DNA of 64,000 nt from an uncultured Psychroserpens sp. (GTDB taxonomy: Bacteria > Bacteroidota > Bacteroidia > Flavobacteriales > Flavobacteriaceae), in NCBI RefSeq assembly GCF_947492715.1, contig NZ_CANLNS010000007.1, positions 1-64,000 on the forward strand. Direction: 5' to 3'. Each line of letters opens with the position of its first letter. Positions within the stretch are counted from its first letter, which is position 1. The notes under the pieces are model-generated. The model searched no databases. It was not told the origin of the DNA and saw only the letters and a list, made by a program, of their open reading frames with translations. Positions 1 through 34,380 of this stretch are shown piece by piece. The position numbers and the translations under genes were made by a program.

Positions 1-83
1 CTCGCGGATTTTCTATTCGGTTTGTATTTGCTAATTTAGTTGCTGAAACACGCAACGAAATCATACACAAACACGTTAGCTAC
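1..83 (+). repeat. attC-like site 0, right part (window edge)
   Basis: Inner-hairpin remnant (GGATTTTC), then GCAACGAAATCATACAC, spacer AAACAC and core GTTAGCTAC (75-83). The left part lies outside the window. The core pairs with the box at 661-669. Confidence 0.75.
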
Positions 84-103
84 AAGCCGAACAAACAACA
101 ATA

Positions 104-664
104 ATGAATATGACAAAAAGCATTTTTATAAATATTTGGCTATTCATTCTGATTCTGATTCTTGTTTCATTATCAGTTTGGGGTATTTTTTACATCGACG
201 ATTTAGAATTAAAGATATCTGTTCTTGGAATAGTGGCATTGATAGTTGCTGCATTTACATCAGTAATGACAGTAAACATAAATAATAAGAAAACACGAGA
301 AAGAGAATATGAATTGCATATACTAAAAGAAAAACAAAAAGTTTGTGAACACTTTTACAATGCAATTTTCGAAATATTCAAGAATGTAAAAAACAATCGT
401 GATGGTCTTTCTAAGAAAACTATTGAAGAAATGTCTCTTTTCAAAAAAGGACTTATGAACTGGGGAAGTGAGGAATTAATTGAGAAATATATTGAGTATG
501 AAGACAACCTCGAAATTTACAAGGGTAACACCAGTGGAATTTTAAATAATGCAGATGATTTTCTTAGAGAAATGCGGAAAGAACTTGGTTTCAAAGATTC
601 TAAGAGTTTAAAACTAATGACTTTAATATTATCCGCAGAAGCTCGAACTGAATTAGGCCAGTAG
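104..664 (+). CDS. Two-helix membrane protein with cytoplasmic helical tail, unknown function (cassette gene)
   Basis: I do not recognise the family. The 186 aa product has two strongly hydrophobic segments (about residues 7-30 and 39-58) followed by a charged, helix-rich region of about 125 residues with many Lys and Glu, so it looks like an inner-membrane anchor with a cytosolic domain. The start is 28 bp after the cassette core at 75; residue 3 is a second possible Met start. The TAG stop lies inside the inverse-core box of the next site (661-669), so the gene fills its cassette edge to edge. No promoter is evident in the short leader; expression may rely on read-through or on the upstream site. 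Confidence 0.75.
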   Translation: MNMTKSIFINIWLFILILILVSLSVWGIFYIDDLELKISVLGIVALIVAAFTSVMTVNINNKKTREREYELHILKEKQKVCEHFYNAIFEIFKNVKNNRDGLSKKTIEEMSLFKKGLMNWGSEELIEKYIEYEDNLEIYKGNTSGILNNADDFLREMRKELGFKDSKSLKLMTLILSAEARTELGQ

Positions 665-797
665 CTAACAACGTGTATAGTTAATTACTGGTTTTGTTTG
701 CACTCGGAAAATCCTGCGGATTTCCCTATTGATTCGTTCTCTTTTATTAACTTTAACCTAGCCTACGTAACTAATCATACACGAACACGTTAGCTAT
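661..797 (+). repeat. attC-like site 1
   Basis: Inverse core GTAGCTAAC (661-669), AAC, left arm GTGTATAG, inner hairpin, right arm CATACAC, spacer, core GTTAGCT (789-795). The inverse core pairs with 75-83 and the core pairs with 1269-1275. Confidence 0.85.
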
Positions 798-816
798 AAT
801 TAGATAAATTGAATAA

Positions 817-1317
817 TTGAAATTGAATAGAGAACCTGTTATAGAACTTATTGACTTATGTATTCCGATTCTGACCGAATATAAGGAGTATTTGAAAATT
901 AAACACCCTTCTTTCAACATTGAGGTTGGAGAAAGTCAAATAGGTAGTTTGACTTCTTATCAAGGGCATCATGTTTACTTGGAATGTTATCGAGACGGTT
1001 ATATTAATGATGAACCAAATTGTATAACTATGGAAGTTTCAATGAAATCTTTAAATACTGACAAACCCATAATGGATTCGCTAGACGTTTGTTGGGGTGG
1101 TGATGGAATACCACCTGAGTTGAATGGATTAGACTTATTATCGGAAGAAATTCCCTGGGGAGAAATAGCAGTAGAGAGGATTAAACAGGGACTTCCTAAA
1201 CTCAGAGACAACATGGATGAATGTCTTAAAGCATGGGAAGACCAATATCCAAAAAAAAATAAAACAACAGCTAACAATGGCTATAATTCATTGTGGTTTT
1301 GTGCCACACCAAAATAA
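817..1317 (+). CDS. Hypothetical cytosolic protein (cassette gene) reading into the following site
   Basis: I do not recognise the family. It encodes a soluble acidic 166 aa protein without signal peptide or membrane segment. The start is TTG at 817, since no ATG lies between the cassette core at 789 and this point. The centre holds a Gly/Trp/Pro-rich stretch (CWGGDGIPPELNG) that looks structured. The last roughly 15 residues are encoded by the attC-like repeat itself, because the inverse core begins at 1269 and the stop falls at 1317. This tail is probably not conserved in homologues. Confidence 0.65.
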   Translation: MKLNREPVIELIDLCIPILTEYKEYLKIKHPSFNIEVGESQIGSLTSYQGHHVYLECYRDGYINDEPNCITMEVSMKSLNTDKPIMDSLDVCWGGDGIPPELNGLDLLSEEIPWGEIAVERIKQGLPKLRDNMDECLKAWEDQYPKKNKTTANNGYNSLWFCATPK

Positions 1318-1401
1318 AAGTATTAATCAACGGCTGATTTCTAAGCGGAATAATCCTGCGGATGATTCCACAACGAAATCATAGCCTAGACCGTTATGTG
1401 C
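1269..1401 (+). repeat. attC-like site 2 (GGC-arm variant)
   Basis: Inverse core AGCTAAC (1269-1275), left arm GGCTATA, right arm CATAGCC, core GTTATGTGC (1393-1401). Both arms changed together relative to the GTGTATA/CATACAC sites. The core pairs with 2124-2132. Confidence 0.8.
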
Positions 1402-1411
1402 AATTCGAAAA

Positions 1412-2131
1412 ATGAAAGAATTGAGAAAAATATTCTGTAGTAGAACAAAAGAAATTCCTTCTTTACAAACAATTAAAGAAGAATTAGAGAAGAATGACAG
1501 AATCAGAATAGATTACAATTCCAAATTCAATTTTCTTTTTATTAGAAACTTAAAAAAGCAAATAACAAACATTGAAGATTCATTGAATGTTGAAATTCAC
1601 AAAGGAGAATTTAAAGACTTGAAGTTTTATAATATTTATAATCTTCTATCTAAACCTGAAGTAGAAAAAATTGCAGGACAGTTGGAAGAGGCAACTAAAA
1701 GCTACAGATTAATTTCAGAAAGATTGATAAGGCAGTTTGAAGAAAAATATGACTTTAGTTTTACTGATACAAATAAGTCTTTTAGAGAAATTAAGGAACA
1801 AATAGAACAAGATAAAAATCAATTATCAGAAAATTGGAGTTATCGATTTCACGGCGGAGATGTTTGTTTCTCTAATTCTAAATCAGGTCAAGTTGTTGAT
1901 ATTAACCTCAAGTATAATGGATTTTATGGAGTATTAGATTTATGGTTTTTTCAGTATTACATGAAAACCACAATTGAATTCAAGTCTATAAGCTCAATTT
2001 ATATTGACAATACTGCTAAATTACTTCAAACGTTAGATTATCTCAAAGAGAAAGGAAAAGTAAAATTAGTGAAATCGGAATTTGATTTCTTGGACTCAGA
2101 TAAGTTAATTTGGAATAAAAACAGCACATAA
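1412..2131 (+). CDS. DUF6896-like hypothetical protein (cassette gene)
   Basis: This is a soluble 239 aa protein starting with ATG 11 bp past the core. Residues 1-140 are charged and probably helical or coiled (Lys/Glu rich). Residues about 145-200 carry WSYRFHGGDVCF, GQVVDINL and a YGVLDLWFFQYY segment. That pattern of His-Gly, Phe-x-Asn, Gly-Gln-Val-Val-Asp and Leu-Asp-x-x-Phe-Phe resembles DUF6896 domains as I remember them, which occur among bacterial immunity-like proteins; this is recall, not a search. The TAA stop lies inside the inverse core at 2124-2132. No signal peptide is present. Confidence 0.6.
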   Translation: MKELRKIFCSRTKEIPSLQTIKEELEKNDRIRIDYNSKFNFLFIRNLKKQITNIEDSLNVEIHKGEFKDLKFYNIYNLLSKPEVEKIAGQLEEATKSYRLISERLIRQFEEKYDFSFTDTNKSFREIKEQIEQDKNQLSENWSYRFHGGDVCFSNSKSGQVVDINLKYNGFYGVLDLWFFQYYMKTTIEFKSISSIYIDNTAKLLQTLDYLKEKGKVKLVKSEFDFLDSDKLIWNKNST

Positions 2132-2260
2132 CAACGTGTATAGTTCATTGCTCGTTCTGTGTGTACTCGGAAAATCCTGCGGATTTTCCTCTGGTTCGTT
2201 TTCTTTTACTAATTTAGTTGCTAGCCAACGCAACTAACCATACACAAACACGTTGTGCGT
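2124..2260 (+). repeat. attC-like site 3
   Basis: Inverse core GCACATAAC (2124-2132), left arm GTGTATAGTT, inner hairpin GAAAATCC/GGATTTTC, right arm AACCATACAC, core GTTGTGCGT (2252-2260). This is a typical full-length example. The core pairs with 3186-3194. Confidence 0.88.
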
Positions 2261-2303
2261 CATTTAAGAAACTGATATAGAACTAACCAAAATATAAAAC
2301 TAT

Positions 2304-3179
2304 ATGAAATTAAAAAGACTAATATTTACTATTCTCTGCATATTCACAATATCATTTGGATTTTCGCAGAAACAGAAGAATTTCAAAGAAAAGCAATATC
2401 TAATTCTTAAAAACGGAAAATATCTAACTCAAGAAAATGACCCAACTGTATTCTTAAAAGTAAAAATCAAAAATGGAAAAAAGCTCGAAAAGACTGAAGT
2501 TCTAATTTCTAAAAATGATACCATTTATAAGTATAAAGAAGTAGACGATTACATCGTAAAACCTTTTTTACAATCAGATTTCACAGGACTTACAACCTCT
2601 AAATTTAAAGGGGATTTTAAAATTGAAAAGAAAAAACTAGTTTTCTATCCGTGGAAGTTCTCCGCAGAAAAAGATTCTACTTTAAATCAGGAATTAAGTG
2701 AAAACTCGTATTATTTAGATATTCCTGATAGGACGGTTTTAAAAGTAAAGTTTCGCTCTTGTCAATTTGGAGCATTGACTTTACCTGTGAAGATATATTT
2801 ATCATCTAAAGCGGACAGCTTAGTTAATAACATTCAAACTGATGTAAATTTAAATTTTATGATTGGTCATAAATGGGGACACAAGAAGTATTCTCAACTA
2901 CCAAATGAAAAAGAAGGCACATCATATGAGAATGCTTGGAGCATTAACTTTCTTGTTGGAATGAGTAAAATAGATTTAAAAAAGAATAATACGACACCCG
3001 ATTTGACTGAAGATATATCAGTACCAGCAATTTCAACCGGATTTGCCTTTGGATATCAATATAGAAAAATCGGTGTCTATATTGCAAGTGGAATTGACAA
3101 CCCGTTGAGTAAGTATGGTAAGGATTGGGATTTTAAAAATCAACTTTGGCTTGGTTTTGGACTTGGACTTGGACTATAA
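2304..3179 (+). CDS. Secreted hypothetical protein with signal peptide (cassette gene)
   Basis: The 291 aa product starts with a clear Sec signal peptide (hydrophobic residues about 6-20, cleavage after FSQ-like residues near 21-22). The N-terminal half is Lys-rich and probably beta-stranded. The C-terminal part has alternating hydrophobic residues, FAFGYQYRKIGVYIASGID and a Gly/Leu-rich end (GLGLGL), which resemble outer-membrane beta-strands of flavobacterial surface proteins. Family not recognised. It is the sole gene between cores at 2252 and 3186; the stop precedes the inverse core by 6 bp. Confidence 0.7.
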   Translation: MKLKRLIFTILCIFTISFGFSQKQKNFKEKQYLILKNGKYLTQENDPTVFLKVKIKNGKKLEKTEVLISKNDTIYKYKEVDDYIVKPFLQSDFTGLTTSKFKGDFKIEKKKLVFYPWKFSAEKDSTLNQELSENSYYLDIPDRTVLKVKFRSCQFGALTLPVKIYLSSKADSLVNNIQTDVNLNFMIGHKWGHKKYSQLPNEKEGTSYENAWSINFLVGMSKIDLKKNNTTPDLTEDISVPAISTGFAFGYQYRKIGVYIASGIDNPLSKYGKDWDFKNQLWLGFGLGLGL

Positions 3180-3185
3180 AAACGA

Positions 3186-3320
3186 ACGCACAACAATGGC
3201 TATAAGTAATTGCTTGTTCTCGCCTACTTCTGAAAATCCTCGCGGATTTTCAGCTTGGTGTGTACTTGCAAAGTTGAGTGCTAACACACGCAACTACTCA
3301 TAGCCGAGAACGTTGTGTAC
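3186..3320 (+). repeat. attC-like site 4 (GGC-arm variant)
   Basis: Inverse core ACGCACAAC (3186-3194), left arm GGCTATAA, hairpin GAAAATCC/GGATTTTC, right arm TCATAGCC, core GTTGTGTAC (3312-3320). The core pairs with 3738-3746. Confidence 0.85.
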
Positions 3321-3340
3321 AATATCCACGAAACTCTAAA

Positions 3341-3730
3341 ATGAAAAAAACACTGATTCTAATATTGACTTTTTTACCTCTAACTTTACTCGGACAGCAT
3401 TTGAAATGTTGTGAATCGGAAAAAGAAGTTGAATCGTATTTGAGCGGAAAGTGGAAAGAAAAAAATGACGAATCTAATACTATTTATGAATATTGGTTTG
3501 AAAATGGAAAAGGTCATTTATCGGAAATAGAAATTGCCGAAAATGGTGACGAATTAATTGAACTTGAAGTCCAACCATTTGTGGAAATAATTAAATATGA
3601 CGGTGGATTTAAAATCAAATTCACTTATCCTTACGAAAATTGGGTTTCGGAATTGAAATACTTGAATTCTAACAAACTGATTTTGATAACGGACAAAAAA
3701 GAAATTGAATATTATAAATACAAAAAATAA
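3341..3730 (+). CDS. Small secreted protein with signal peptide (cassette gene)
   Basis: This 129 aa product starts at the ATG at 3341; the reading frame is open upstream into the repeat, but the signal peptide (Lys-Lys, then hydrophobic residues to LLGQ) fixes this start 29 bp from the core. After the signal peptide come CC, then a WKE...NTIYEYWFENGKG pattern and alternating beta-strand character, similar to small lipocalin-like domains of Bacteroidota. Family not firmly recognised. It ends 7 bp before the inverse core of the next site. Confidence 0.7.
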   Translation: MKKTLILILTFLPLTLLGQHLKCCESEKEVESYLSGKWKEKNDESNTIYEYWFENGKGHLSEIEIAENGDELIELEVQPFVEIIKYDGGFKIKFTYPYENWVSELKYLNSNKLILITDKKEIEYYKYKK

Positions 3731-3737
3731 AAATACT

Positions 3738-3874
3738 GTACACAACAACGGCTATAGTTCATTGCGGCGGAATTTCCTCTCGGAAATTCCTGCGTATTTG
3801 CTAACTTTGATTTACGACGGAATAGTTCTACCGAACCATTCCGCAACGAAACCATAGCCAAGACCGTTGGCAAC
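3738..3874 (+). repeat. attC-like site 5 (GGC-arm variant)
   Basis: Inverse core GTACACAAC (3738-3746), left arm GGCTATAGTT, a different inner hairpin (GGAATTTCC/GGAAATTCC type), right arm AACCATAGCC in AAACCATAGCC, core GTTGGCAAC (3866-3874). The core pairs with 4474-4482. Confidence 0.82.
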
Positions 3875-3890
3875 AATATAACCCAAATCA

Positions 3891-4466
3891 ATGGAAGCCC
3901 TTTTTCACTTCATATTTCAGTTATTTAAAATAGCAATTCTTGCGTCTATTTATGCTTCAATTTTAATTGGAATTATATTAATTATTGGAAAATTTAAAAA
4001 GACAGAATTTCTAAAAAGAGTAAAATCGGAAAAGAAAAAATATTGGTTCTCTTTTGGGTTTTTAATCTCAATTGGACTTTTAATTTTCTCTTTTACTTAT
4101 TGGGGAAATCATGGACTTGGAGATAGTGCAAGAATACCTATTGGGAATTTTAAAGAGGTTGGAGAAACTAATGGAATTGATGCCTATATCGAACCTCATA
4201 ATTATCAATATGGAGCGATGAATGTGAATAGTTTTATTAAATCTGACAATTATCTTGTTGGAAAAACAGAAGTGAGTCCAGTTGACAGACCAAAACCCTT
4301 CTTTAGTTGGGATTTATCTAAAGACGAAATCATATTTTATGATTCTGAAAAGGAATACAATGCATTTGCAGATAAAAATAGATTACCAAAAATATCGGAA
4401 TTTAAAACGTTTCGTGAAAGTTATAGAGAATATTGGAGTGGAATTAGATTTCTGCTATTACCATAA
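3891..4466 (+). CDS. Two-helix membrane protein, unknown function (cassette gene)
   Basis: The 191 aa product has hydrophobic helices at about residues 10-33 and 51-70, with a basic loop between them (KKTEFLKRVKSEKKK), then a soluble domain of about 115 residues with YIEPHNYQYGAMN and a Pro/Trp-rich patch (PVDRPKPFFSWDLS). The topology suggests a periplasmic or cytosolic C-terminal domain on a helical hairpin. I do not recognise it. Start ATG is 17 bp after the cassette core; the stop is 8 bp before the inverse core. Confidence 0.7.
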   Translation: MEALFHFIFQLFKIAILASIYASILIGIILIIGKFKKTEFLKRVKSEKKKYWFSFGFLISIGLLIFSFTYWGNHGLGDSARIPIGNFKEVGETNGIDAYIEPHNYQYGAMNVNSFIKSDNYLVGKTEVSPVDRPKPFFSWDLSKDEIIFYDSEKEYNAFADKNRLPKISEFKTFRESYREYWSGIRFLLLP

Positions 4467-4473: not shown

Positions 4474-4609
4474 GTTGCCAACAACGTGTATAATCAATTG
4501 CTCAGTCTGTGTGTACTCGGAAAATCCTACGGATTTTCCTCTGGTTCGTTTTCTTTTGCTAACTTAGTTCTAGCCAACGCAACTAACCATACACGAACAC
4601 GTTACCTGC
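4474..4609 (+). repeat. attC-like site 6
   Basis: Inverse core GTTGCCAAC (4474-4482), left arm GTGTATAATC, hairpin GAAAATCC/GGATTTTC, right arm AACCATACAC, core GTTACCTGC (4601-4609). The core pairs with 5315-5323, and the leader after it is nearly identical to that at 21583. Confidence 0.88.
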
Positions 4610-4630: not shown

Positions 4631-5308
4631 ATGAATAAAATATATAAAATTTTAATAGTCGGATTTTTAATTTTTGGATGTAAAAATAAAAATGCGAACA
4701 AGAAAATAACTGAAGAAAAAGTAGTATTCAATCAAGACTTAGCTGATGAACTTAAAAGAATGGCTGAAGTTGACCAAATTGCTGCTTATATACCGCAAGG
4801 AGATTATAAAAAAATGACTGAAGCTCAATGGAATTCATTTAAAGACAGTGTTTTTACAACTCATCAAAAGCGGTTAAAACAAATTTTTGACAAAAACGGA
4901 TTTGTAGGATTCGACTTGGCAGGAAAAGAAGGTTCTCAAAATTTTTGGTTAATGGTTCAACATTCCGACCATAATTCTGACTTTCAAAAGGAAATTTTGG
5001 AAAAAATGAAAATAGAAGTTGAGAATGATAATGCTTCACCTAGTAATTATGCTTTTTTGGTTGACAGAGTAAGTATTAATACAGGAAAAGAACAGGTTTA
5101 TGGAACACAGTTTACTTATAATGAACTTGGACAAGCATATCCTAAAAATATGTCAGACACAATTGGAATCAATAAAAGAAGAAAAATAGTTGGACTTAAG
5201 CCAATCATTGAACGAATGAATGAAATGACAACATCGCATTTTATTATGAATAAAAGTTATTTTAATAAAAAGGGAATATCTGAACCTAAATTATACAAAT
5301 CTGAATAA
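4631..5308 (+). CDS. DUF6624-family lipoprotein, copy 1 (cassette gene)
   Basis: The 225 aa product has a lipoprotein signal peptide with lipobox LIFGC (Cys17), so it is probably outer-membrane or periplasmic. The body carries the pattern DKNGFVG, an MVQHSDHN segment, an FLVDRVSI helix and EQVYGTQF. This matches the DUF6624 architecture: a W/F-P-x-x-G turn, VQHS/D, a long helix, then LxDR and Q-I/V-YGTQ. Function of DUF6624 is unknown. Related proteins sit in two other cassettes here (11492-12181 and 20838-21515), each with its own boundary box, so these are separately acquired cargo and not a tandem duplication. Confidence 0.8.
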   Translation: MNKIYKILIVGFLIFGCKNKNANKKITEEKVVFNQDLADELKRMAEVDQIAAYIPQGDYKKMTEAQWNSFKDSVFTTHQKRLKQIFDKNGFVGFDLAGKEGSQNFWLMVQHSDHNSDFQKEILEKMKIEVENDNASPSNYAFLVDRVSINTGKEQVYGTQFTYNELGQAYPKNMSDTIGINKRRKIVGLKPIIERMNEMTTSHFIMNKSYFNKKGISEPKLYKSE

Positions 5309-5314: not shown

Positions 5315-5450
5315 GCAGGTAACACCGTGTATAATTCATTGCTAGTAATCGCTTACTTACGAAAATCCTCTCGGATTTTCTATTCGGTTTGTATTTGCTA
5401 AATTAGGTGCTTAAACACGCAACGAAATCATACACAAACACGTTGTAGGT
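5315..5450 (+). repeat. attC-like site 7
   Basis: Inverse core GCAGGTAAC (5315-5323), left arm CGTGTATAATTC, hairpin GAAAATCC/GGATTTTC, right arm GAAATCATACAC, core GTTGTAGGT (5442-5450). The core pairs with 6062-6070. Confidence 0.88.
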
Positions 5451-6061: not shown

Positions 6062-6200
6062 ACCTACAACAACGTGTATAATTAATTGCTATGGCAATTG
6101 CCTACTTGGAAAATTCCTTCGGAATTTTCTCTGGCACGTTTTTGTTTACTAAATTAGTGGCTTAACCACGCAACTAACCATACACAAAACCGTTGTGTAC
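6062..6200 (+). repeat. attC-like site 8
   Basis: Inverse core ACCTACAAC (6062-6070), left arm GTGTATAATT, hairpin with GGAAAATTCC/GGAATTTTC, right arm AACCATACAC, core GTTGTGTAC (6192-6200). The core pairs with 6584-6592. Confidence 0.87.
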
Positions 6201-6583: not shown

Positions 6584-6806
6584 GTACACAACAACGTGTA
6601 TAATTAATTACTCGTTGTGTGCGTACTCGGAAAATCCTACGGATTTTCCTCTGGTTCGTTTTCTTTTACTAATTTAGACCTAGCCAACGCGATCAACTAT
6701 TAAAGCTAGTAGATTTTTGCTCGACATTTTGAAAAAATGACGCCAGCAAAAACGAACTAGGGAAAATAATCACCGAAGGTAAACCATACACGAACACGTT
6801 GTGCTT
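6584..6806 (+). repeat. attC-like site 9 (long variant)
   Basis: Inverse core GTACACAAC (6584-6592), core GTTGTGCTT (6798-6806). About 90 bp longer than typical. The insert carries a second hairpin (TTTTTGCTCG against CAAAAACGA-type arm), and CGAACTAGGGAAAA complements the upstream TTTTCCTCTGGTTCG. The core pairs with 7990-7998. Confidence 0.85.
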
Positions 6807-6841: not shown

Positions 6842-7987
6842 ATGTATGAAGAAGATGATTTCCTAGTTTGTCCTGAATCTGAAAATTTTCTCAGCATTCG
6901 GGAATTACAAAAAATGTATACTTACGAACCTTCAAAGGAAGAGTGTATTTATAATTTCAAATCTGGACAATGTGGTGGTTCTTGTAATCAAGATTTCCTA
7001 AAAGATATAGCGCTTTATATAGTAATTGAAAATCTTGACCGATTAGGCTTGCAAGAATATAAAACAGAAAGTTCTGAAGAAAAAGATGGAGAAATAATTA
7101 AAACATCAAAATCTATCAAAGGCTTTTTCTACGATGAAAATAAAGCTATCGGAATAATTCATACATCAACGAATTACAAACTTCTACCTAAAAATTTTGT
7201 TGACAAAATATCAAATCTAATTCAGGTTACGGATTTATATGAAGGAGACAGATATTTGTTAGCAAAAACTGCAAAAAAAACATTCGCCTTTGACATAAGG
7301 AATTATAGAAAAATCGAAAATATAATTCAGACAATTGATTATGAATATGATTTAAATGTTGAAGAACAATTAATATCCGAAGATGGAACTGTCCTTGTGT
7401 TAATTGGAACTGATGGAACAAAATTTGTTCTTATGGGCTTATTAGGAGACGATTATGACAAAGAAGAAAGAGTAACTTTAAGTAGAAAGGTCGAAAGTTC
7501 AATACCATTTTTTGAGTTTGAGCCTTTTACCAAAGTAGAATGGAATCTTTTAAAAGATATTAAAGGAACAACATTTGAAAACCTATGTGAAGTTCTTCTT
7601 CAAAATAACAATGGAATAAATGATGTTCAAGCAATTGGAAAACCAAATGCAGCAGACAGAGGCAGAGATTTTATTATAACTCGAGAAGTTTACGACCTTA
7701 AAGGAAAGAAAAAAGAGAAATGGTTAGTTCAATGTAAATTTTCAAAGCATAGTATTTCACCTGCAACAATAAGTGGATGGACAGACAGAGTTGTAGAACA
7801 CAATGTAGATGGTTTTTGGCTTATGACAAACAGCGATATAACACCAAGTCTATACGACCAACTAAACGACTCTTCAAAGAATGATAAATTTAATGTAAAA
7901 ACCGAAATTTGGTCAAGAAACAAATTTGACATTCAATTCAATTTACAAAAGGAATTGTTTTCGACTGAATTTTTTAATGACAAATAA
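6842..7987 (+). CDS. Mrr-type PD-(D/E)XK restriction endonuclease-like protein (cassette gene)
   Basis: The 381 aa protein has a C-terminal nuclease-like domain (about residues 240-345). It shows GTTFENLCEVLL (Glu246), a strand with ADRGRDF (Asp272/Asp276) and a VQCKF strand (Gln297, Lys299). That is the E...D...QxK pattern of the Mrr_cat branch of PD-(D/E)XK enzymes, which cut foreign or modified DNA. Residues 1-235 are a separate region with several Cys near 10-48 (CGGSC among them); I do not recognise it, and it may be a sensor. It is the only gene in its cassette, without a methyltransferase partner, so a modification-dependent (type IV-like) or other defence role is inferred. Start ATG is 36 bp from the core. 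Confidence 0.75.
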   Translation: MYEEDDFLVCPESENFLSIRELQKMYTYEPSKEECIYNFKSGQCGGSCNQDFLKDIALYIVIENLDRLGLQEYKTESSEEKDGEIIKTSKSIKGFFYDENKAIGIIHTSTNYKLLPKNFVDKISNLIQVTDLYEGDRYLLAKTAKKTFAFDIRNYRKIENIIQTIDYEYDLNVEEQLISEDGTVLVLIGTDGTKFVLMGLLGDDYDKEERVTLSRKVESSIPFFEFEPFTKVEWNLLKDIKGTTFENLCEVLLQNNNGINDVQAIGKPNAADRGRDFIITREVYDLKGKKKEKWLVQCKFSKHSISPATISGWTDRVVEHNVDGFWLMTNSDITPSLYDQLNDSSKNDKFNVKTEIWSRNKFDIQFNLQKELFSTEFFNDK

Positions 7988-7989: not shown

Positions 7990-8030
7990 AAGCACAACAA
8001 CGTGTATAATTCATTGCTACTGCTGGCTAA
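7990..8030 (+). repeat. attC-like site 10, left half only
   Basis: Inverse core AAGCACAAC (7990-7998, pairs with 6798-6806), then AACGTGTATAATTCATTGC. The right half is missing. The sequence after it (about 8025-8110) includes a short remnant resembling the 5' part of the gene at 33512. Confidence 0.75.
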
Positions 8031-8092: not shown

Positions 8093-8110
8093 AAAACTGA
8101 ATAAAAACGT

Positions 8111-8274
8111 ATGCTAACAACACGTATAACCAATTGCTAGTTCTGTACGTACTCGGACACGAGCGAAGCGAACTGGCGCAAGCAAAATCCTACGGATTTT
8201 CCTCTAGTTCGTATTTGTTTACTAAATTAGTTGCTCAAACACGCAACTAACCTTATACAAAACCGTTGCCACAC
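8111..8274 (+). repeat. attC-like site 11
   Basis: Inverse core ATGCTAAC (8111-8118, no partner start found), left arm CGTATAACC, the CGAGCGAAGCGAACTGGCG module, hairpin AAAATCC/GGATTTT, right arm CCTTATAC, core GTTGCCACAC (8265-8274). The core matches the inverse core far downstream at 12872-12881. Confidence 0.8.
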
Positions 8275-12185: not shown

Positions 12186-12320
12186 TACTTACAACACCGT
12201 ATAAAATTAATTGCTAATTTCTAGTTTACTTACGAAAATCTTTTCAGATTTTCATTCGTTTTTTATTTGCTAAATTCAATGTTTAAACCACACAACTAAT
12301 CTTATACAATAATGTTAACC
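12186..12320 (+). repeat. attC-like site 13 (diverged)
   Basis: Inverse core TACTTACAAC (12186-12195), left arm CGTATAAAATT, hairpin GAAAATC/GATTTTC, right arm ATCTTATAC, core GTTAACC (12314-12320). Left and right arms have changed together (GTATAA with TTATAC). No partner for the core was found nearby. Confidence 0.7.
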
Positions 12321-12334
12321 ATAATTAAAGAAAA

Positions 12335-12871: not shown

Positions 12872-13008
12872 GTGTGGCAACACCGTGTATAATTCATTGC
12901 TAGTAAAGGCTTACTTACGAAAATCCTCGCGGATTTTCCATTTGGTTTGTATTTGCTAATTTAGTTGCTGAAACACGCAACGAAATCATACACAAGACCG
13001 TTGTGTGT
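12872..13008 (+). repeat. attC-like site 14
   Basis: Inverse core GTGTGGCAAC (12872-12881), left arm CGTGTATAATTC, hairpin GAAAATCC/GGATTTTC, right arm GAAATCATACAC, core GTTGTGTGT (13000-13008). The core pairs with 13600-13608. Confidence 0.88.
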
Positions 13009-14543: not shown

Positions 14544-14545
14544 AA

Positions 14546-20569: not shown

Positions 20570-20802
20570 ACACATAACAACGTGTATAGTTCATTGCTGG
20601 ATGGGGCTTATAGATTATCTTTGAAATTCTGCCGAATTTTCCTCTGGTTCGTTTTCTTTTACTAATTTAGTTGCTAGCCAACAAGATCAACTATTAAAGC
20701 CAGTTATATTTTTGCTCGACATTTTGAAAAAATGACGTAAGCAAAAACGAACTAGGGAAAATAGTCACATAAGATAAACCATACACGAACACGTTGACAT
20801 TC
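20570..20802 (+). repeat. attC-like site 20 (long variant)
   Basis: Inverse core ACACATAAC (20570-20578, no partner), left arm CGTGTATAGTTC, extra second-hairpin insert shared with sites 9 and 16, right arm AAACCATACAC, core GTTGACATT (20793-20801), pairing 8/9 with 21519-21527. Confidence 0.83.
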
Positions 20803-20837: not shown

Positions 20838-21515
20838 ATGAAATATATTTTATTGATCAGTCTGCTATTAGCAATGAGTTGCTCTAGTAAAACCAAGTCA
20901 GAAGGAATCTCGACATCATCGGAGAATCAAGGAAATTTAATTGCAATTCTAGACACTATCTGGAAAACTGAACAGCGACCAATTACATTAAGAGATTCAC
21001 TTATGAAAATATATGGTGCTGAATCAGAATTAGTTAAGACACAACAAGCTATCTATAAGAAGAACCATATCATAAATGAAAGAAAAGTAAAGGATATTCT
21101 AGATAAATATGGATGGCCTTCTAAAGAAACGGCAGGTGAACAAGGAAATTGGACTATATGCAATGTTATACAACATTCAGATAATTCAGTTCGAATACAA
21201 TATCTTCCAATGATGAGACAAGCTGTAAAAGAGAAAAAGTTAGAGCCTCGATTTTTAGTAAGAGCAGAAGACAGAATAGCAACTGAAAGAGGAGAATTAC
21301 AAATCTATGGTGGACAAATGAAATACTATCCAGAAACCAAGAGTTTTAACCTTTGGCCTGTTTTTGAACCAGAAAATATAGATAAACGAAGAACTGAAAT
21401 CGGACTTGATTCAATCGCTATATTTCTAAAGAATAGATTTGATTTCGAATGGAATCTTGAAGAGCAAATTAAGCGAACAGAAGTGTTTGAAAGAGAACGT
21501 AAAAAACAAAACTAA
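20838..21515 (+). CDS. DUF6624-family lipoprotein, copy 3 (cassette gene)
   Basis: The 225 aa product has lipobox AMSC (Cys about 15). The DUF6624 blocks are present: ILDKYGWPSKETAGEQ, VIQHSDN, YLPMMRQAVKEKKL, a VRAEDRIATERGE helix and LQIYGGQM, where the third copy has GGQ in place of GTQ. It is the sole gene of its cassette (20793/21527). The copies at 4631 and 11492 share the same blocks at moderate identity. Confidence 0.82.
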   Translation: MKYILLISLLLAMSCSSKTKSEGISTSSENQGNLIAILDTIWKTEQRPITLRDSLMKIYGAESELVKTQQAIYKKNHIINERKVKDILDKYGWPSKETAGEQGNWTICNVIQHSDNSVRIQYLPMMRQAVKEKKLEPRFLVRAEDRIATERGELQIYGGQMKYYPETKSFNLWPVFEPENIDKRRTEIGLDSIAIFLKNRFDFEWNLEEQIKRTEVFERERKKQN

Positions 21516-23195: not shown

Positions 23196-23361
23196 ACAAC
23201 CAACAACATGTATAACTAATTACTTGTTCTGCTTGTTCTCATAAAATCCTACAGATTTTCCTCTGGTTCGTTTTCTTTTGCTAATTTAGTTCCAGCCAAC
23301 GCAACACACGAGCCTAACGAACTGGCGAAGCTAAACCATATACGAACACGTTACCCAAAAT
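23196..23361 (+). repeat. attC-like site 22
   Basis: Inverse core ACAACCAAC (23196-23204, no partner), left arm ATGTATAACT, hairpin AAAATCC/AGATTTTC, the CTAACGAACTGGCGAAGC module, right arm AAACCATATAC, core GTTACCCAAA (23350-23359), which pairs 9/10 with 24534-24543. Confidence 0.8.
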
Positions 23362-23389: not shown

Positions 23390-24457
23390 TCAAATATTCA
23401 CTAGAACCCATAGTTCTACTTCTTCTGAAGAACGCCAATGCTGATCTCGCTTGGTTTTATTAGAAGCTGATTTTACTGTTTTTTTCAAACATCTTTCCAA
23501 CTGAAACCTATTGCCTTGGGCTAATTCTGTTTCTATAGGATGCTCTGTTGTAACATTAGTTATTTGAGCTAAATTCGAGAAAATTAATACAAGTTTTCCA
23601 TCTGGCAAAAGTCTTTTTTTTGCCTCAATAAAAAAGTCTGCAAACAACGTCTTATTATAATAAATAGCCTCATCAATATTACTTAAATCATAACTTTCTG
23701 GTAACCAAGGCGGATTAAAAACAATCAATTCTGTCTGTTTTTCCCACTTGCCAAAAAGATATCCAAAGTCCAATTCAATTTTTCGAGATAGCTTAGTTGA
23801 TCCCATAAATTCTATCAATCCAACAATTGCATTCGGATTAATATCAGTCGCATAAACCTTTTGGAAATTATGTTGTATTAATTGCATTGTTAATACTCCA
23901 CAGCCAATTCCTATTTCTATTGCTGTTTTTTTTGATCCTTTATAACGCTTCAACCAATTATCAAAAAGCACTAAATGTTCAAAACGTGTTGGGAAATATA
24001 TTCCGTAATAAGGATGCATTTTGTTACGAAGTACTGGTATGGAAATTCCTTTTTGATACCATTGCCAAGAACTATTCAATCCTTGTACTTGAGGAAAAGT
24101 TAGACAAAAATGATCATTATCTGGATAAAATTTTTCTAACCAACCTATACTAGGTGATTTCTTTACACTTAGTTTTTGATTGACAATTTCTAATAAAATT
24201 AAATTTGAAAGTTTATAATATTCTGATCGATACTTTTGCTGCTCCTTAAAGGATTTATTAGGTAATTTAATCTTCAGATATTTATGTAAATCTTGAAGAA
24301 GAGATATTCCATCATTATAAAAATCTTTGATTATTATCGATTCACCTTTATTTAGGGCCTTTATCGTATGTGCAACCACAGTACTACGATTATATGATTT
24401 TAGCTTTTCGTTAATTGCAATAGGCTCTGGTTTGTTTACTTGTATCTCAGTAATCAT
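23390..24457 (-). CDS. Class I SAM-dependent methyltransferase, PrmC/small-domain type (reverse-oriented cassette gene)
   Basis: The 355 aa protein has a C-terminal methyltransferase domain (about residues 165-320): motif I IEIGIGCGVLTMQLI, ATDINPNA as the acidic loop, and catalytic-type NPPW motif (VFNPPWLPE). The NPPY/NPPW motif is known in enzymes methylating amide or ring nitrogens of proteins, DNA or RNA; the target here is unknown. Residues 1-160 are an unrecognised helical region. The gene lies antisense to the array inside a cassette whose edges still pair (23350/24543). Confidence 0.8.
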   Translation of the reverse strand: MITEIQVNKPEPIAINEKLKSYNRSTVVAHTIKALNKGESIIIKDFYNDGISLLQDLHKYLKIKLPNKSFKEQQKYRSEYYKLSNLILLEIVNQKLSVKKSPSIGWLEKFYPDNDHFCLTFPQVQGLNSSWQWYQKGISIPVLRNKMHPYYGIYFPTRFEHLVLFDNWLKRYKGSKKTAIEIGIGCGVLTMQLIQHNFQKVYATDINPNAIVGLIEFMGSTKLSRKIELDFGYLFGKWEKQTELIVFNPPWLPESYDLSNIDEAIYYNKTLFADFFIEAKKRLLPDGKLVLIFSNLAQITNVTTEHPIETELAQGNRFQLERCLKKTVKSASNKTKRDQHWRSSEEVELWVLVNI

Positions 24458-24533
24458 TGATTGGTTTCCTTTTTGATAAGGTAGGCAATCCTTTCTGCAT
24501 ATTACTGTTATCTATAGAAAACATTCAAATAAC

Positions 24534-24608
24534 TTTGGGTTACAATGTGTATAACGAATGGCTACTCCTAGCCTACTCGGACACGAGCGAAGCGAACTGG
24601 CGCAAGCA
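24534..24608 (+). repeat. attC-like site 23, left half only
   Basis: Inverse core TTTGGGTTAC (24534-24543), left arm ATGTGTATAACG, then the CGAGCGAAGCGAACTGGCG module. Right arm and core are missing; the next minus-strand gene's 3' end directly abuts. Confidence 0.7.
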
Positions 24609-24609
24609 A

Positions 24610-25662
24610 CTATTTCACAAAAATTGCATAAGCCCTAACATAGTTAAAATCATCACTTGGTAATATTACCATCGCATCATTTTTCCAATAGGTGGCTTTA
24701 GAACTTAAACTTATACCTGTAAATCCTGCATAATAAATATCATCACCATGTTTCACTATAGAAGATATTTCTCCTACAATAGTATCGGATATGATTTCTC
24801 CATTTAACCAAAATCGCAAAATAAGACTATCTCCTACTGCTTGACTTGAACCAGAAACATACAGATTATCATTATCAGCAAGAATTCCAAACGCTCCTGC
24901 AAAAGATGTATTGTTTTCAAGAACAGTAATTTGATTATTGTTCCAATAACTGGCAACTTGAATGTCATCATTATTAATTTCTCTATTTTCCCTTAATGCA
25001 ATATAAACCTCGCCTTGATCTATACTGATATCATTTGCAAAAGCCGAATCTGTACCATCAGTTAAGCTAATTGAAGTACCGTTTACCCAATACTTTGCAA
25101 TCGAACCTTCCTTTCCTACAATATGAATTTCGCCCTCATAGAGTGCTAACGCTCTTGCAGCAGCGAACTCAGTGCCATCTGTTAATAATGTTGGCATTCC
25201 ATTTACCCAATAGGTAGCTATATTTCTACCTCCAGGTATCTCTGAATCTTCTTCACCAACAACATAAACATCTTCACCATCAACTAAAATATCATATGCA
25301 ATAGCATCTCTAGTACCATCCGACAGGTTAACCGACACTCCATTTTTCCAGTATTTTGCTATCGATATTCCATTTCCTAATTCTTCATAGCCCGCAACAT
25401 ACACGTCATCACCAGACACAAAGACTGAAAATGCTTCGGCATTTGTTTGACCATTTGTTAAGACGGTAAGTTCCTCATCAACCCATAATAAGGCTCTATC
25501 TAATTCGGAATCTCCTGTATCCGATTCATTAGCATTAGATCCAACTACATAAACTGTTGAATCTTCTGGATTGTTCATTTCAGCATCATCTGAATTATCA
25601 CTAGAACAAGAAGCTAAAAGCAAGGTTAAACATACCATATTCCATGCAATTGTTTTTTTCAT
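24610..25662 (-). CDS. Lipoprotein with beta-propeller-like repeats
   Basis: The 350 aa product has lipobox LASC (Cys about 19) followed by an Asp/Ser-rich linker (SSDNSDDAEMNNPED). The rest is about seven repeats of roughly 42-45 residues with the pattern (V/I)YVAG...A.YW.NG....LTDGT..A.A..I.(V/D).. , consistent with a beta-propeller of the kind found on Bacteroidota surfaces. Function unknown, probably ligand or polymer binding. It is on the minus strand; the 3' end abuts half-site 23, and the 5' side runs to site 24. Confidence 0.78.
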   Translation of the reverse strand: MKKTIAWNMVCLTLLLASCSSDNSDDAEMNNPEDSTVYVVGSNANESDTGDSELDRALLWVDEELTVLTNGQTNAEAFSVFVSGDDVYVAGYEELGNGISIAKYWKNGVSVNLSDGTRDAIAYDILVDGEDVYVVGEEDSEIPGGRNIATYWVNGMPTLLTDGTEFAAARALALYEGEIHIVGKEGSIAKYWVNGTSISLTDGTDSAFANDISIDQGEVYIALRENREINNDDIQVASYWNNNQITVLENNTSFAGAFGILADNDNLYVSGSSQAVGDSLILRFWLNGEIISDTIVGEISSIVKHGDDIYYAGFTGISLSSKATYWKNDAMVILPSDDFNYVRAYAIFVK

Positions 25663-25754: not shown

Positions 25755-25855
25755 TTTTGCTAACAACGCGCATAGTAAATTACTAGTTAAGCTTGCGCTC
25801 GGACACGAGCATAGCGAACTGGTTAAGCAATTCATACACAAACACATTTGTACCA
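25755..25855 (+). repeat. attC-like site 24
   Basis: Inverse core TTTTGCTAAC (25755-25764, no partner), left arm CGCATAG, the CGAGCATAGCGAACTGG module, right arm TTCATACAC, degenerate core TTTGTACCA (25847-25855; GTT to TTT), pairing 8/9 with 26876-26884. Confidence 0.72.
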
Positions 25856-26875: not shown

Positions 26876-27038
26876 TGGTACAACAACGCATATAACCAAT
26901 CGTTAGTTCTCTATGTACTCGAAAACCTTAAGGATTTTCCTCTGGTTCGTTTTCTTTTGCTAATTTAGTTCCAGCCAAAGCAACACACGCGCCTAACGAA
27001 CTGGCGAAGCTAAACCATATACGAACACGTTGTAAATA
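26876..27038 (+). repeat. attC-like site 25
   Basis: Inverse core TGGTACAAC (26876-26884), left arm CGCATATAACC, hairpin GAAAACC/GGATTTTC, CTAACGAACTGGCGAAGC module, right arm AAACCATATAC, core GTTGTAAATA (27029-27038). Right part is nearly identical to site 22. Confidence 0.82.
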
Positions 27039-28977: not shown

Positions 28978-29111
28978 TGTGCCCAACAACATGTATAGTT
29001 AATAATGCTTAAAAGATGGTTCTAGAAATTCTGCCCAATTTCCGTTCTCTTCGTTCTTTTTTGCTAACTTACTTCCTAACACTAAAAATCATAAACAAAT
29101 CCGTTGATAGC
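28978..29111 (+). repeat. attC-like site 27 (diverged)
   Basis: Inverse core GTGCCCAAC (28978-28986 region), left arm ATGTATAGTT, diverged middle, right side AATCATAAACAAATCC, core GTTGATAGC (29103-29111). Neither box has a partner. Confidence 0.65.
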
Positions 29112-29117: not shown

Positions 29118-29849
29118 ATGAAATACATCATTTTTACAATTTTATGTTTTCTTTCTTTAAACTCAGTAAAAGCTCAAATGGATAAGATTACTGGTACGCC
29201 ATTAACTGATTTATCAAATATATTCAACCAAAACGAATTTACTGTTGACATAATGGATGATATTGGCGTGGATCCCCTCTTTAATGTATATGTAGAAAAA
29301 CTGAAAAGTTCCATTCAGAAAAACTATGAGTGGTTTTTAGAATATTCGAAAAAAATTAAACCAGGAAAATCTCTAGAATACCATCCAAATTTTGGGCTTT
29401 CAGAAAGTGAATACAAAGAATTTTTAGGAATGACTGGAGGTGTCGAATTACTATCTTCTGGCAAAGAAAAATTAAAAATAGTAAAGAATGATTCTATTAT
29501 TCAATTGACTGGAATCAATAAGTTAAAAGCGCTCAGTAATATCAAAATTGATTTAAAAAACAATCAAGTTTTCTACAAAAGTTATACGCTTCCATTTAAA
29601 CAAAACATACATGTAGATGATGCAGACAATGGATTTAAAAGTGAGTGGAAAGGTTATAGCTGGAGTTTTGAAGACCCAAATGCACCTGAAGAATTTGATT
29701 TAACTAACATAGAAAGTCTCAATATTAAAGTTGTAAAATTGACCATCGGGCAACTTAACAAAAATGGAAAGGTTTATATGAAACTTGAGGAAAGAATAAT
29801 GGAAAATGGAGTTAAAACCGTTGATATTCAAGTTCCTGTTATTTTTTAA
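29118..29849 (+). CDS. Secreted hypothetical protein
   Basis: The 243 aa product starts at ATG 29118, 6 bp after the core box, with a signal peptide (FTILCFLSLNSVKAQ, cleavage near residue 20). The frame is open upstream through the repeat, but the signal peptide sets the start. The mature part shows an IFNQNEFTVDIMDDIGVDP segment, a helical WFLEYSKKIKPGKS region and a WKGYSWSFEDPNAP motif; no family recognised. The cassette's expected right box is missing and only a right half-site follows. Confidence 0.65.
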   Translation: MKYIIFTILCFLSLNSVKAQMDKITGTPLTDLSNIFNQNEFTVDIMDDIGVDPLFNVYVEKLKSSIQKNYEWFLEYSKKIKPGKSLEYHPNFGLSESEYKEFLGMTGGVELLSSGKEKLKIVKNDSIIQLTGINKLKALSNIKIDLKNNQVFYKSYTLPFKQNIHVDDADNGFKSEWKGYSWSFEDPNAPEEFDLTNIESLNIKVVKLTIGQLNKNGKVYMKLEERIMENGVKTVDIQVPVIF

Positions 29850-29860
29850 TTAATATAACT

Positions 29861-29897
29861 GCCAGCATAACTAACCATAAGCAAACACGTTAAATGC
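29861..29897 (+). repeat. attC-like site 28, right half only
   Basis: GCCAGCATAACTAACCATA followed by spacer and core GTTAAATGC (29889-29897). Left half deleted. The core pairs 8/9 with 30928-30936. Confidence 0.7.
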
Positions 29898-30925: not shown

Positions 30926-30927
30926 CA

Positions 30928-31090
30928 GCACTTAACAACGTGTATAACTCATTGCTAGATAACCTACTCGTAAACGAGCAAAGCGAACTAACGCAAGCTA
31001 AATTCGGCACATTTTCCTAATGACTCACTCCCTTTTACTATCTTAGACCTGCCAACATCATAAGTAACCATATATCTACACGCTAGCTGC
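30928..31090 (+). repeat. attC-like site 29
   Basis: Inverse core GCACTTAAC (30928-30936), left arm CGTGTATAACTC, CGAGCAAAGCGAACTAACG module, right arm AACCATATATC, degenerate core GCTAGCTGC (31082-31090; GTT to GCT). No partner for the core. Confidence 0.75.
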
Positions 31091-31117
31091 AAACTAAAAA
31101 AGAAGACGCAATTAAAA

Positions 31118-32766: not shown

Positions 32767-32980
32767 CAACACGGTGTTAAAAATCAACAAAGTATCACTA
32801 TAATCCCGAATGGATTTGACTACAACATCATCCGTTTGGGATTATTATTGTCTGCCTAAACCTAAAATCCTAGCAGATTTCCCTCTGGTTCGTTTTCTTT
32901 TGCTAACTTAGTTTTGACCAACATAACACGCGAGCGTAGCGAACTTGCCTAAACAAACCATACACAAACACGTTGTAACC
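32762..32980 (+). repeat. attC-like site 30 (with embedded terminator hairpin)
   Basis: Inverse core TGTAGCAAC (32762-32770), a left arm reduced to ACGGTG, a foreign hairpin at 32801-32844, the usual GATTTCC...TCTGGTTCG middle, CGAGCGTAGCGAACTTG module, right arm AAACCATACAC, core GTTGTAACC (32972-32980). Boxes have no partners. Confidence 0.7.
32801..32846 (+). terminator. Hairpin terminator candidate inside site 30
   Basis: AATCCCGAATGGAT and ATCCGTTTGGGATT form a 14-bp stem with two wobble or mismatched positions and a loop of about 13 nt, followed by ATTATTGTCT. It is 40 bp downstream of the lipoprotein stop. Confidence 0.65.
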
Positions 32981-32995
32981 AATTCGAGAAATTCA

Positions 32996-33454: not shown

Positions 33455-33459
33455 GAACT

Positions 33460-33500
33460 AGCTGAAACAACGTGTCTAGCAAATTGCATTAACTGGCTAA
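33460..33500 (+). repeat. attC-like site 31, left half only
   Basis: Inverse core AGCTGAAAC (33460-33468), then AACGTGTCTAGCAAATTGC; no right half. The sequence beyond it resembles that after half-site 10. Confidence 0.65.
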
Positions 33501-33511
33501 GAGGACGATCT

Positions 33512-33697
33512 TTGCACGCTTTTTACTATATTGTTACTACCAAAAATGAATCGTGCACTTTCACACAACTAATCATGCATGAATGCATTGCGAGTAATAT
33601 ACATGGAACAGAAGAAATAGCTAGAGATTATCTGAAGCGGTTGTCGGAGGAAATGAAAAAGCAATACACAATAACACTAAATCAAAACAATGGATAA
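33512..33697 (+). CDS. Small hypothetical protein, possibly 5'-truncated
   Basis: The 61 aa frame opens with TTG at 33512 inside a half-site and reads FYYIVTTKNESCTF, LIMHECIASN, then a helix EEIARDYLKRLSEEMKKQ. Its TAA overlaps the ATG of the next gene (ATGGATAA at 33690-33697), which argues it is translated and coupled to that gene. The true start may have been lost when the left half-site was joined to it. A remnant of a related sequence lies at 8022-8092. No family recognised. Confidence 0.5.
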   Translation: MHAFYYIVTTKNESCTFTQLIMHECIASNIHGTEEIARDYLKRLSEEMKKQYTITLNQNNG

Positions 33698-33875
33698 AAA
33701 AATACTTGGGAATTTTATTATATACTTTCCAACCATCGCATATATAGCATATACTATAGTGATTAAAGAAAAGGGCTCTGGAATTGACTGGACTGCCATT
33801 GTAATTGCTGGATTTATTAGTATGATAAGCTATGCCATTGGAAACCGTATAAAAAACAAAGGTGAAATTGAATAA
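33690..33875 (+). CDS. Small two-helix membrane protein
   Basis: The 61 aa protein has hydrophobic helices at about residues 7-23 and 34-51 and a basic C-terminus (NRIKNKGEIE). It overlaps the stop of the upstream gene by eight bases (ATGGATAA), typical of translational coupling. The next gene begins just downstream, so three genes (33512-34347) form a compact run without a recombination site between them. Function unknown. Confidence 0.55.
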   Translation: MDKKILGNFIIYFPTIAYIAYTIVIKEKGSGIDWTAIVIAGFISMISYAIGNRIKNKGEIE

Positions 33876-33888
33876 AGAAAAAAGAGTA

Positions 33889-34347
33889 ATGAATAGAGAG
33901 AAAAAGCCTTTATACCGAAAAGTAAATACAAAAGCACGAGGAGTTCGGCATAATTTCGGAGGAGATTATAAAAATAATAGAAATAAAAAAAGGGAATCAA
34001 TAGAAGTTGTAAAGGGCTCAATGCATGGCAAGAAAAATAGAGGGTTAGATTATACACCACTTTTTAAATTTCTCTTGTCCAAAGTTGGATATGAATGGAA
34101 TCAAGTTTTTTCGGAGGCTAAATCTAGACTTGATACAACTGAACCAATATTCTGGTTGGTTGCAAACGATGAAAGCGATAAAAAAGACTATGTAAGATTG
34201 GGTGAATCAACCTATTTCTCTGGTTTATTTATTGATGTTGATGGCATTCTCCAACTCACAAATCCGAATCTTAAACCAAAGGATCTCACTCCGTTCTGTA
34301 ACTGCTGTACGCATACGCTCAACGGAAAACTATTTGGAAGTGAATAG
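33889..34347 (+). CDS. Conserved hypothetical protein of Bacteroidota
   Basis: The 152 aa product is counted from ATG 33889; an in-frame GTG at 33862 would overlap the preceding gene. The N-terminus is strongly basic (REKKPLYRKVNTKARGVRHN), followed by MHGKKNRGLDYTPLFKFLLS, WNQVFSEAKSRLD, EPIFWLVA, RLGESTYFSGLFID and a Cys pair motif CNCCTHTLNG. I recall proteins with this layout as widespread hypothetical proteins of the phylum; the Cys/His cluster could bind metal. Function unknown. Confidence 0.7.
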   Translation: MNREKKPLYRKVNTKARGVRHNFGGDYKNNRNKKRESIEVVKGSMHGKKNRGLDYTPLFKFLLSKVGYEWNQVFSEAKSRLDTTEPIFWLVANDESDKKDYVRLGESTYFSGLFIDVDGILQLTNPNLKPKDLTPFCNCCTHTLNGKLFGSE

Positions 34348-34348
34348 A

Positions 34349-34380
34349 ACACCGCAACAAACAAAATGTATAACCAATTA
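34349..34380 (+). repeat. attC-like site 32, degenerate left half (end of array)
   Basis: CACCGCAAC then AAATGTATAACCAATT, matching the AACGTGTATAACCAATT left arm of other sites. No right half. It is the last trace of the repeat family toward the right. Confidence 0.5.

Follow-up and report, generated by a model that had tools for sequence, protein, structure and literature searches.

Of all the machinery that stockpiles and shuffles genes, integrons are the most familiar. In the sedentary chromosomal integrons of Vibrio, palindromic sites separate the mostly single-gene cassettes of large one-way arrays, and a recombinase gene and an attI site are found at one end; the canonical core consensus of integrons is GTTRRRY. 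The stretch of DNA analysed here (the window) comprises bases 1–64,000 of contig C7 (NZ_CANLNS010000007.1) from a 4.2 Mb draft genome in 41 contigs. It carries an integron-like cassette array (1–34380, + strand) that starts at the contig edge, C7:1, and is mostly intact in its proximal part and decayed in its distal part. It is very probable that the window holds a fragment of a chromosomal integron-like array, the cassettes of which are predicted to be moved by the tyrosine recombinase that is encoded beside such arrays and is without the insert that defines the integron integrase, IntI. Judged from sequence, the platform would work like an integron, with its cassettes predicted to move, and has the anatomy of one, but it has its own type of recombinase and is not canonical, because the IntI domain is missing, the recombinase lies outside the IntI branch and GTTRRRY is rare.

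The resemblance to the Vibrio superintegron covers all of the features of layout named above and extends to complementarity of at least 9 nt between a cassette's own ends and to the presence of gene-less cassettes. In contrast to Vibrio, the recombinase has no IntI additional domain, falls outside the IntI clade and is encoded by a gene that points towards the array, the core is rarely GTTRRRY, and the strand asymmetry appears to come through G·T wobbles. In the chromosomal integrons of Treponema, intI is transcribed towards the cassettes according to the available text of the published description (PMC3607928). This direction is shared by the recombinase gene described here, whereas the Treponema enzyme is an IntI and the present one is missing the IntI-specific insert. 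The window taken alone is an array without an integrase, as in a cluster of attC sites lacking an integron integrase (CALIN). Unlike a CALIN, it has a counterpart on contig C11 of the same genome (join to C7 unassembled), where a recombinase gene, an attI-like site and an array stand together, as they do beside the arrays of relatives. No report of integrons or cassette arrays in Flavobacteriaceae was found in the literature searched, which consisted of titles and abstract openings, with no preprints and few subscription journals; an earlier description is possible.

The cassette array in the window

About 26–28 related palindromic sites, in a single orientation (+ strand), lie between mostly single genes in positions 1–34,380. 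A covariance model (R1) for the bottom strand, built from 15 sites (12 in the window and 3 on contig C11), identified 22 window sites at E<=0.01, all in the same orientation. A profile from 150 sites, the window sites included, identified 29 window pieces at E<=1, again all in one orientation, and none on the reversed window that served as a control. Once the halves of three long sites are merged, the 29 pieces become 26 sites, and two sites represented by a left arm only bring the number to 28. The arm consensus in the window sites is AACAACGTGTATAATTAATTGCT on the left and ATACACRAACACGTT on the right. Left arms with no more than 7 mismatches occur 24 times on the + strand of 1–34,400 and are absent from the + strand of 34,401–64,000; over its full length, the minus strand of the window has 2. 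Most sites are about 125–135 nt long; they have AAC...GTT ends and an imperfect L''/L' stem, and the tip varies. Tandem cassettes with palindromic sites in one orientation, a defining property of integrons, are therefore present, and the observation of an array in the window is confirmed. An earlier, sequence-only reading of this DNA had reported about 33 sites in one direction. The single orientation stands, but that number is reached only if further truncated remnants are counted.

Cassette ends and the boundaries of exchange

The first 9-mer of an intact cassette is GTTNNNNNN, and its reverse complement closes the same cassette, a feature that the earlier reading had not named. This was assessed in 181 cassettes from 40 loci for which both ends were found and the length was 100–4000, the rest of the 253 sites being dropped. 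The own ends are complementary, at 5 or more of the 6 variable bases, in 144 of these cassettes, where shuffled pairings give a mean of 11.6 and a maximum of 22. In a relative with a large array, G007, this is so for 264 of the 276 cassettes used (shuffled maximum 40). The R''/R' complementarity of 9–11 nt within one cassette that characterizes integrons is thus found in both sets. Complementary 9-mers at both ends are the mark of an integron cassette, because the unit closes into a circle. In the window, the first ten cassettes tested all have matching ends, as do 11 of 23 overall, with a mean of 1.4 and a maximum of 6 in 2000 shuffles.

The sites might instead be miniature inverted-repeat transposable elements (MITE) or other transposed repeats inserted between genes, being inverted-repeat elements of about 125 bp in such positions, with some long forms recurring many times. 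The target-site duplication of such an element is a direct repeat around one element, whereas the 9-mers seen here are inverted and are part of the unit that two elements enclose. The flanks of a single site match at background only (2.3 of 6 variable bases) and all sites run one way at each locus. An origin through transposed repeats is considered extremely improbable.

GTTRRRY fits only 22 of the 181 cassette starts, while the base after GTT is a purine in all 181. This agrees with the earlier description of the core as GTT plus a free sequence. One start core in the window, GTTGCCACA at 8265, pairs with the end at 12879 rather than with the nearer end at 12193, skipping the site at 12187–12322, so that this cassette has seemingly been split or fused.

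The limits of the exchanged unit were located in G007 using 543 cassette pairs (90 cassettes in 22 families, with bodies of at least 120 bp) with an identity of 90% or more over 90% of the body. A pair was not used on the left if both cassettes come after the same family (11 pairs), nor on the right if both come before the same family (11 pairs), so that each side rests on 532. On the left, identity is at background to position −2 (0.46 at −3 and 0.43 at −2, with 0.47 for random pairs) and is 1.00 from −1 onwards. On the right, it stays high as far as +2 and drops to background from +3 on. Most of the pairs come from one family of 30 copies, and equal weighting of the families gives the same picture of the boundaries. 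This profile indicates that the exchanged unit begins and ends inside CGTT. Because all four bases of CGTT are conserved, G/TT is indistinguishable from the neighbouring positions, and the earlier proposal that units are bounded at G/TT agrees with the data at the resolution of these 4 bp, in comparisons inside one chromosome and among species. The counterpart of window cassette 1 in genome G002 (83%) shares its ends, contains an additional gene and has different neighbours; that of cassette 5 in G020 (84%) also has different neighbours, along with a CTT core and a decayed right end. A third, weaker match (74%) is to G007.

Gain and loss of cassettes through RecA, by homologous recombination between dispersed repeat sites and with no dedicated recombinase, would have suitable substrates here, as the sites are alike enough to recombine (many matches among those listed are >85% identical). 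The breakpoints would then be spread over the site, whereas the flanks match no better than background until CGTT is reached, after which identity is 1.00. Homologous recombination also gives no reason for the complementary own ends, nor for a recombinase and an attI-like site at the head of the array, and as an explanation it is very unlikely.

The recombinase and its attI-like site

Three proteins of the own genome match the tyrosine recombinase family PF00589. Two of these score best as XerD and XerC, and their loci have no sites in 31 kb. The third has 313 aa and is encoded at C11:2553–3494 on the minus strand. CGTGTATATTTATCCTCATATAACACGTTAGCC lies within 45 nt of its stop codon, and beyond it three sites with their cassettes reach to the contig edge. 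This edge and the start of window cassette 5 have 76 bp in common, beginning at the C of CGTT, with a different site in front. A duplicated cassette at which the assembly overlaps may account for the identity; whether or not this is so, the same cassette 5 start stands behind two different sites.

The sequence-only reading had noted an array with no integrase and had proposed an integron-like system of a Bacteroidota type with its recombinase outside the window, to be sought as a tyrosine recombinase near an array end. There is no integrase inside the window, but a recombinase, an attI-like site and an array of the same type are together at the edge of C11, and in relatives the recombinase and the array are direct neighbours. 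The genome thus has a recombinase beside a same-type array, although strictly speaking this enzyme is no IntI.

An attI-like start of the form GTT[AG]N5[ACT]A is found within 115 nt of the recombinase stop, 14–86 nt after it, in 42 of 46 recombinase loci. A recombinase gene, mostly pointing in the direction of the array, stands at the array head with its attI-like site about 25–90 nt behind it. The same pattern occurs in 129 of 1000 random stretches of equal size, so a few of the 42 may be there by chance. At most loci of the main clade, the attI-like GTT stands at 30 or 39 nt, with variants of TATATTT-N6-ATATAAC-NN in front of it. Other loci have palindromes such as GGATATA-N10-TATATCC directly before it. 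A cassette-type start thus adjoins the recombinase gene, as attI does in integrons, and is a putative attI. Cassette starts of the GTTNNNNACAATAG kind, similar to those of repeated non-coding cassettes in G007, come directly behind the attI-like site in G010 and G001, and one base off in G006 (L077, L083 and L086). The sequence TATATTTG is found in 14 of the 46 attI-like regions, within 90 nt of the recombinase stop (L074, L076, L079, L083 and others). It fits TAnnTTTG, the −7 promoter element of Bacteroidota. A cassette promoter inside the attI-like region is possible.

Against the IntI model TIGR02249 the C11 enzyme scores 203.3 bits, the cut-off being 265, and leaves model positions 176–238 unmatched; no gene of the own genome reaches this cut-off. 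The enzyme has 26 residues where IntI4 has 69. The motif distance is 58–59 in the 42 of 55 new-type rows that had both motifs, and 100 in 25 of the 28 IntI rows. The new recombinase branches apart from IntI, and the IntI-specific additional domain that marks the integrase of a canonical integron is missing. The best NCBIfam model for the C11 enzyme is XerA/NF040815, ‘site-specific tyrosine recombinase/integron integrase’ (216.5 bits, cut-off 220), a name that is generic, as the XerD-like protein of the own genome also passes (227 bits). XerA is likewise the best PDB match (5hxy, 140.6 bits). A housekeeping XerC or XerD role for the C11 enzyme was considered and rejected. It scores 178 bits against both models, while the separate genes score best as XerC with 298 bits (cut-off 335) and as XerD with 325 bits (cut-off 330). 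The available text of two surveys has integrons selected on the IntI additional domain (PMC2426708; PMC9668308), and in that of the second the insert is called necessary (PMC9668308). In 21 of 26 homologues from the genus there is an additional N-terminal domain, similar to the HARP/XPB damage-recognition fold, that could help to hold the folded hairpin.

Association of the recombinase with the sites

In the window's family, 96 recombinase matches were found in 83 of 120 genomes, and 20 loci from 20 genera were taken with several kb on both sides. The search covered up to 10 kb each way, two stretches being shortened by contig ends. R1 sites are present at 19 of these 20 loci, in 18 of which every site is downstream of the recombinase gene and in the same direction (123 of 129 sites overall). 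With the profile, 78 of 82 sites are downstream in the same direction, the other 4 all being in locus L193. An integrase gene divergent from its cassettes, as in a canonical integron, is therefore seen at only one of the 20 loci, with 18 in the same direction and one without sites. A shorter or more distant recombinase (about 280–355 aa) divergent from an R1-type array, which is the classical integron layout, was observed at L193 (G023), L098/L099 (G019), G354:C33 and G362:C44.

Of 395 genomes sampled from the phylum, 38 of the 58 R1-positive and 79 of the 337 R1-negative ones carry the new recombinase (E<=1e-60; p = 9e-10), compared with 19 of 58 and 88 of 337 for canonical IntI (p = 0.34). 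These and the following p-values overstate independence, because the genomes are related. Within the 41 genomes of the window's family, the recombinase is found in 20 of 21 R1-positive and 10 of 20 R1-negative genomes (p = 0.001). None of the 41 is among the 107 phylum genomes with an IntI match at E<=1e-60, which leaves the new recombinase as the sole candidate of the two there. Outside the family, the recombinase is in 18 of 37 R1-positive and 69 of 317 R1-negative genomes (p = 0.0009). The 37 R1-positive genomes there include 11 with both enzymes, 7 with the recombinase only, 8 with IntI only and 11 with neither.

These comparisons bear on whether this is a canonical integron or CALIN, with ordinary attC sites moved by a true IntI located elsewhere or formerly present, and with the nearby recombinase a housekeeping Xer-type or phage enzyme. 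The sites do match attC in length, R''/R' complementarity and the conserved base adjoining AAC, and IntI scores above its cut-off in 105 of the 395 genomes. Outside the family, R1-positive genomes have it more often (19 of 37 versus 88 of 317, p = 0.004), 8 of the 37 having it without the new recombinase, and canonical IntI may move such sites there too. This explanation is nevertheless very unlikely for the window. No gene of its genome reaches the IntI cut-off and none of the 41 family genomes has an IntI match at E<=1e-60, the R1 sites track the new recombinase and not IntI across the phylum, the XerC- and XerD-like genes are separate and without sites nearby, and GTTRRRY is rare among the cassette starts.

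A recombinase of a new type, encoded beside such arrays, remains the preferred explanation, and several observations weigh against it. Besides the IntI enrichment outside the family, L178 has no sites and L193 has an array that is upstream and divergent. The choice of the 20 loci was not blind, because the sites of some of these genomes were already known. The recombinase occurs without detected sites in the 10 R1-negative family genomes counted above, and one of 23 genomes of the genus (88% complete) has no recombinase at E<=1e-30. C11 and C7 are separate contigs with the link between them unassembled, and no recombinase open reading frame (ORF) was found in the 4 kb before another array of the own genome (C2:518 kb on). 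The 313-aa enzyme itself does not have the extra N-terminal domain. Identity on the right side of the G007 cassettes is lowered at −2 and −3 (0.59 and 0.78 for all pairs, 0.85 and 0.86 when balanced), and the evidence of exchange comes from one genome per species rather than from strains of one species. Matching ends are gone in 12 of the 23 window cassettes, mostly distal ones, as expected of an older, decayed end of the array.

Folding of the sites and choice of strand

The bottom-strand helix is supported by compensatory cells, of which 15 sites show 17 and 150 sites show 113, with none of 500 shuffles as high. Using DNA parameters, the bottom strand folds more stably in 256 of 277 G007 sites (20 opposite and one tie), compared with 126 versus 148 for random stretches. 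At two positions of the stem, 148 and 146 of the 150 sites have a G·T wobble on the bottom strand, which would be an A·C mismatch on the top strand.

In the available text on known attC sites, extrahelical bases set the choice of strand, the sites are 57–142 nt long, R''/R' pairing is 9–11 nt in most cassettes and a conserved G adjoins AAC (PMC2727003). The length range, the pairing and the conserved G are also seen here, the long-form sites being longer than 142 nt. It is likely that the cassette-side substrate is the folded bottom strand, and that the strand is chosen via the two near-invariant G·T wobbles and not via flipped-out bases. A cassette would leave as a circle, by recombination between its two flanking sites, and would enter at the attI-like site after the recombinase gene.

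Distribution among relatives

Every one of the 23 genus genomes has R1 sites, which are also present in 252 of 299 genomes and 207 of 236 genera of the family (E<=1e-4, best 11 candidates per genome) and in 58 of the 395 phylum genomes (E<=1e-6, best 8 candidates per genome). The closest named proteins are from Psychroserpens, Pontimicrobium, Hanstruepera, Winogradskyella, Olleya and Polaribacter, which makes Flavobacteriaceae the likely family. One genus of the family, g127, is mostly R1-negative, with 3 of 23 genomes positive, and the recombinase is nevertheless present in 10 of its 20 negative genomes. All sites have one orientation in each of 30 site-bearing loci, 26 of which have two or more sites. 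In the own genome there are 80 R1 matches at E<=0.001 among the best 150 candidates, with further clusters on C5, C2, C3 and C6, several at contig edges.

The genome of G007 is a single contig of 4.03 Mb with the recombinase match at 1,836,588–1,837,484 (+). The array begins 0.8 kb downstream and contains 285 sites (E<=0.01) in 266 kb (1,838,279–2,104,527), all 285 in one direction with a median spacing of 657 bp. The longest ORF of at least 50 aa is on the array strand in 199 of 276 cassettes and on the other strand in 8, while 69 have none. Non-coding cassettes in this array (G007:C1) are present in up to 30 and 12 copies (e.g. 1850771 and 1885742), and such repeated cassettes might carry promoters or other signals. 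R1-type sites were also observed on five viral contigs (L256–L260), and a Tenacibaculum finnmarkense plasmid has a 74% match (CP116296.1:98374–98498). Cassettes may travel on phages and plasmids.

Individual sites and cassette cargo

All of the sites in the window are on the + strand. The first (1–83, 67.8 bits with R1) is a right part only, cut by the contig edge, and its first 71 bp are identical to a site on contig C11. An attC-like site at 661–797 (110.6 bits) is followed by sites at 1267–1401 (84.2 bits), 2124–2260 (132.2 bits), 3186–3320 (120.9 bits), 3738–3874 (93.8 bits), 4474–4609 (117.4 bits), 5315–5450 (133 bits) and 6062–6200 (125 bits). Further along are those at 8110–8273 (72.3 bits), 12187–12322 (97.6 bits), 12873–13008 (131.8 bits), 13600–13733 (97.1 bits), which has a GTA rather than a GTT core, and 28979–29111 (94.3 bits). 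Long forms, with about 86 bp extra inside, are located at 6584–6806 (67.8 bits for 6584–6717, right end 6798), 17911–18133 (53.6 bits for 17911–18048, right end 18125) and 20570–20801 (59.9 bits for 20570–20711, right end 20793); close copies of these occur many times on contig C5.

Lower scores were obtained for a divergent site at 18937–19071 (43 bits) and for those at 23196–23358 (55.9 bits for 23196–23322, profile E 7e-22), 26876–27037 (41.3 bits, profile E 3e-19) and 32818–32977 (46.8 bits for 32818–32944, profile E 1e-12). Truncated sites are represented by left arms at 7990–8030 (left-arm search and 150-site profile) and 24542–24581 (150-site profile) and by a right part at 29838–29892 (150-site profile). 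Degenerate sites are found at 25756–25854, which is short with an ATT core (arm searches), at 30928–31090 with a GCT core (27.5 bits) and at 33460–33595 (left arm). The last left arm of the array is at 34354–34380 (left-arm search).

The body of cassette 1 (GTTAGCTAC...GTAGCTAAC, 75–669, +) has a 186-aa ORF at 104–664 without a Pfam match. That of cassette 5 (3312–3746, +) begins with the bases that recur at the C11 edge behind a different site, the 76-bp identity spanning 3311–3386. Other cassette genes on the + strand encode an Mrr-type restriction endonuclease domain (6842–7987, PF04471, E 2.2e-10) and an HNH endonuclease domain (19457–20566, PF14279, E 1.3e-16). DUF6624 proteins are encoded by two cassettes (4631–5308 and 20838–21515). 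In a Pfam scan of 20 window proteins, 10 had no match, and the several defence-like genes reported from the sequence alone are no more than hinted at by these scans. Minus-strand ORFs of 251–359 aa lie at 13788–15625 and 23390–25662 in the decayed part of the array.

Implications

If the recombinase swaps cassettes as predicted, this is likely to be an overlooked second kind of integron. A wider proposal is favoured, if only slightly: that a second integron lineage exists in most sampled genera of one family and in other classes of the phylum, with an integrase clade distinct from IntI, a HARP/XPB-type junction-recognition domain in place of the IntI insert in many members, and fixed G·T wobbles that choose the strand. 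An enzyme without the insert that has been described as necessary would allow a test of which IntI features folded single-strand recombination needs. Surveys may miss these arrays because integrons are defined there by IntI and attC models. If the proposal is true, integron surveys may not count a large store of mobile genes in this family, in which 252 of 299 genomes have such sites and a single chromosome has as many as 285.

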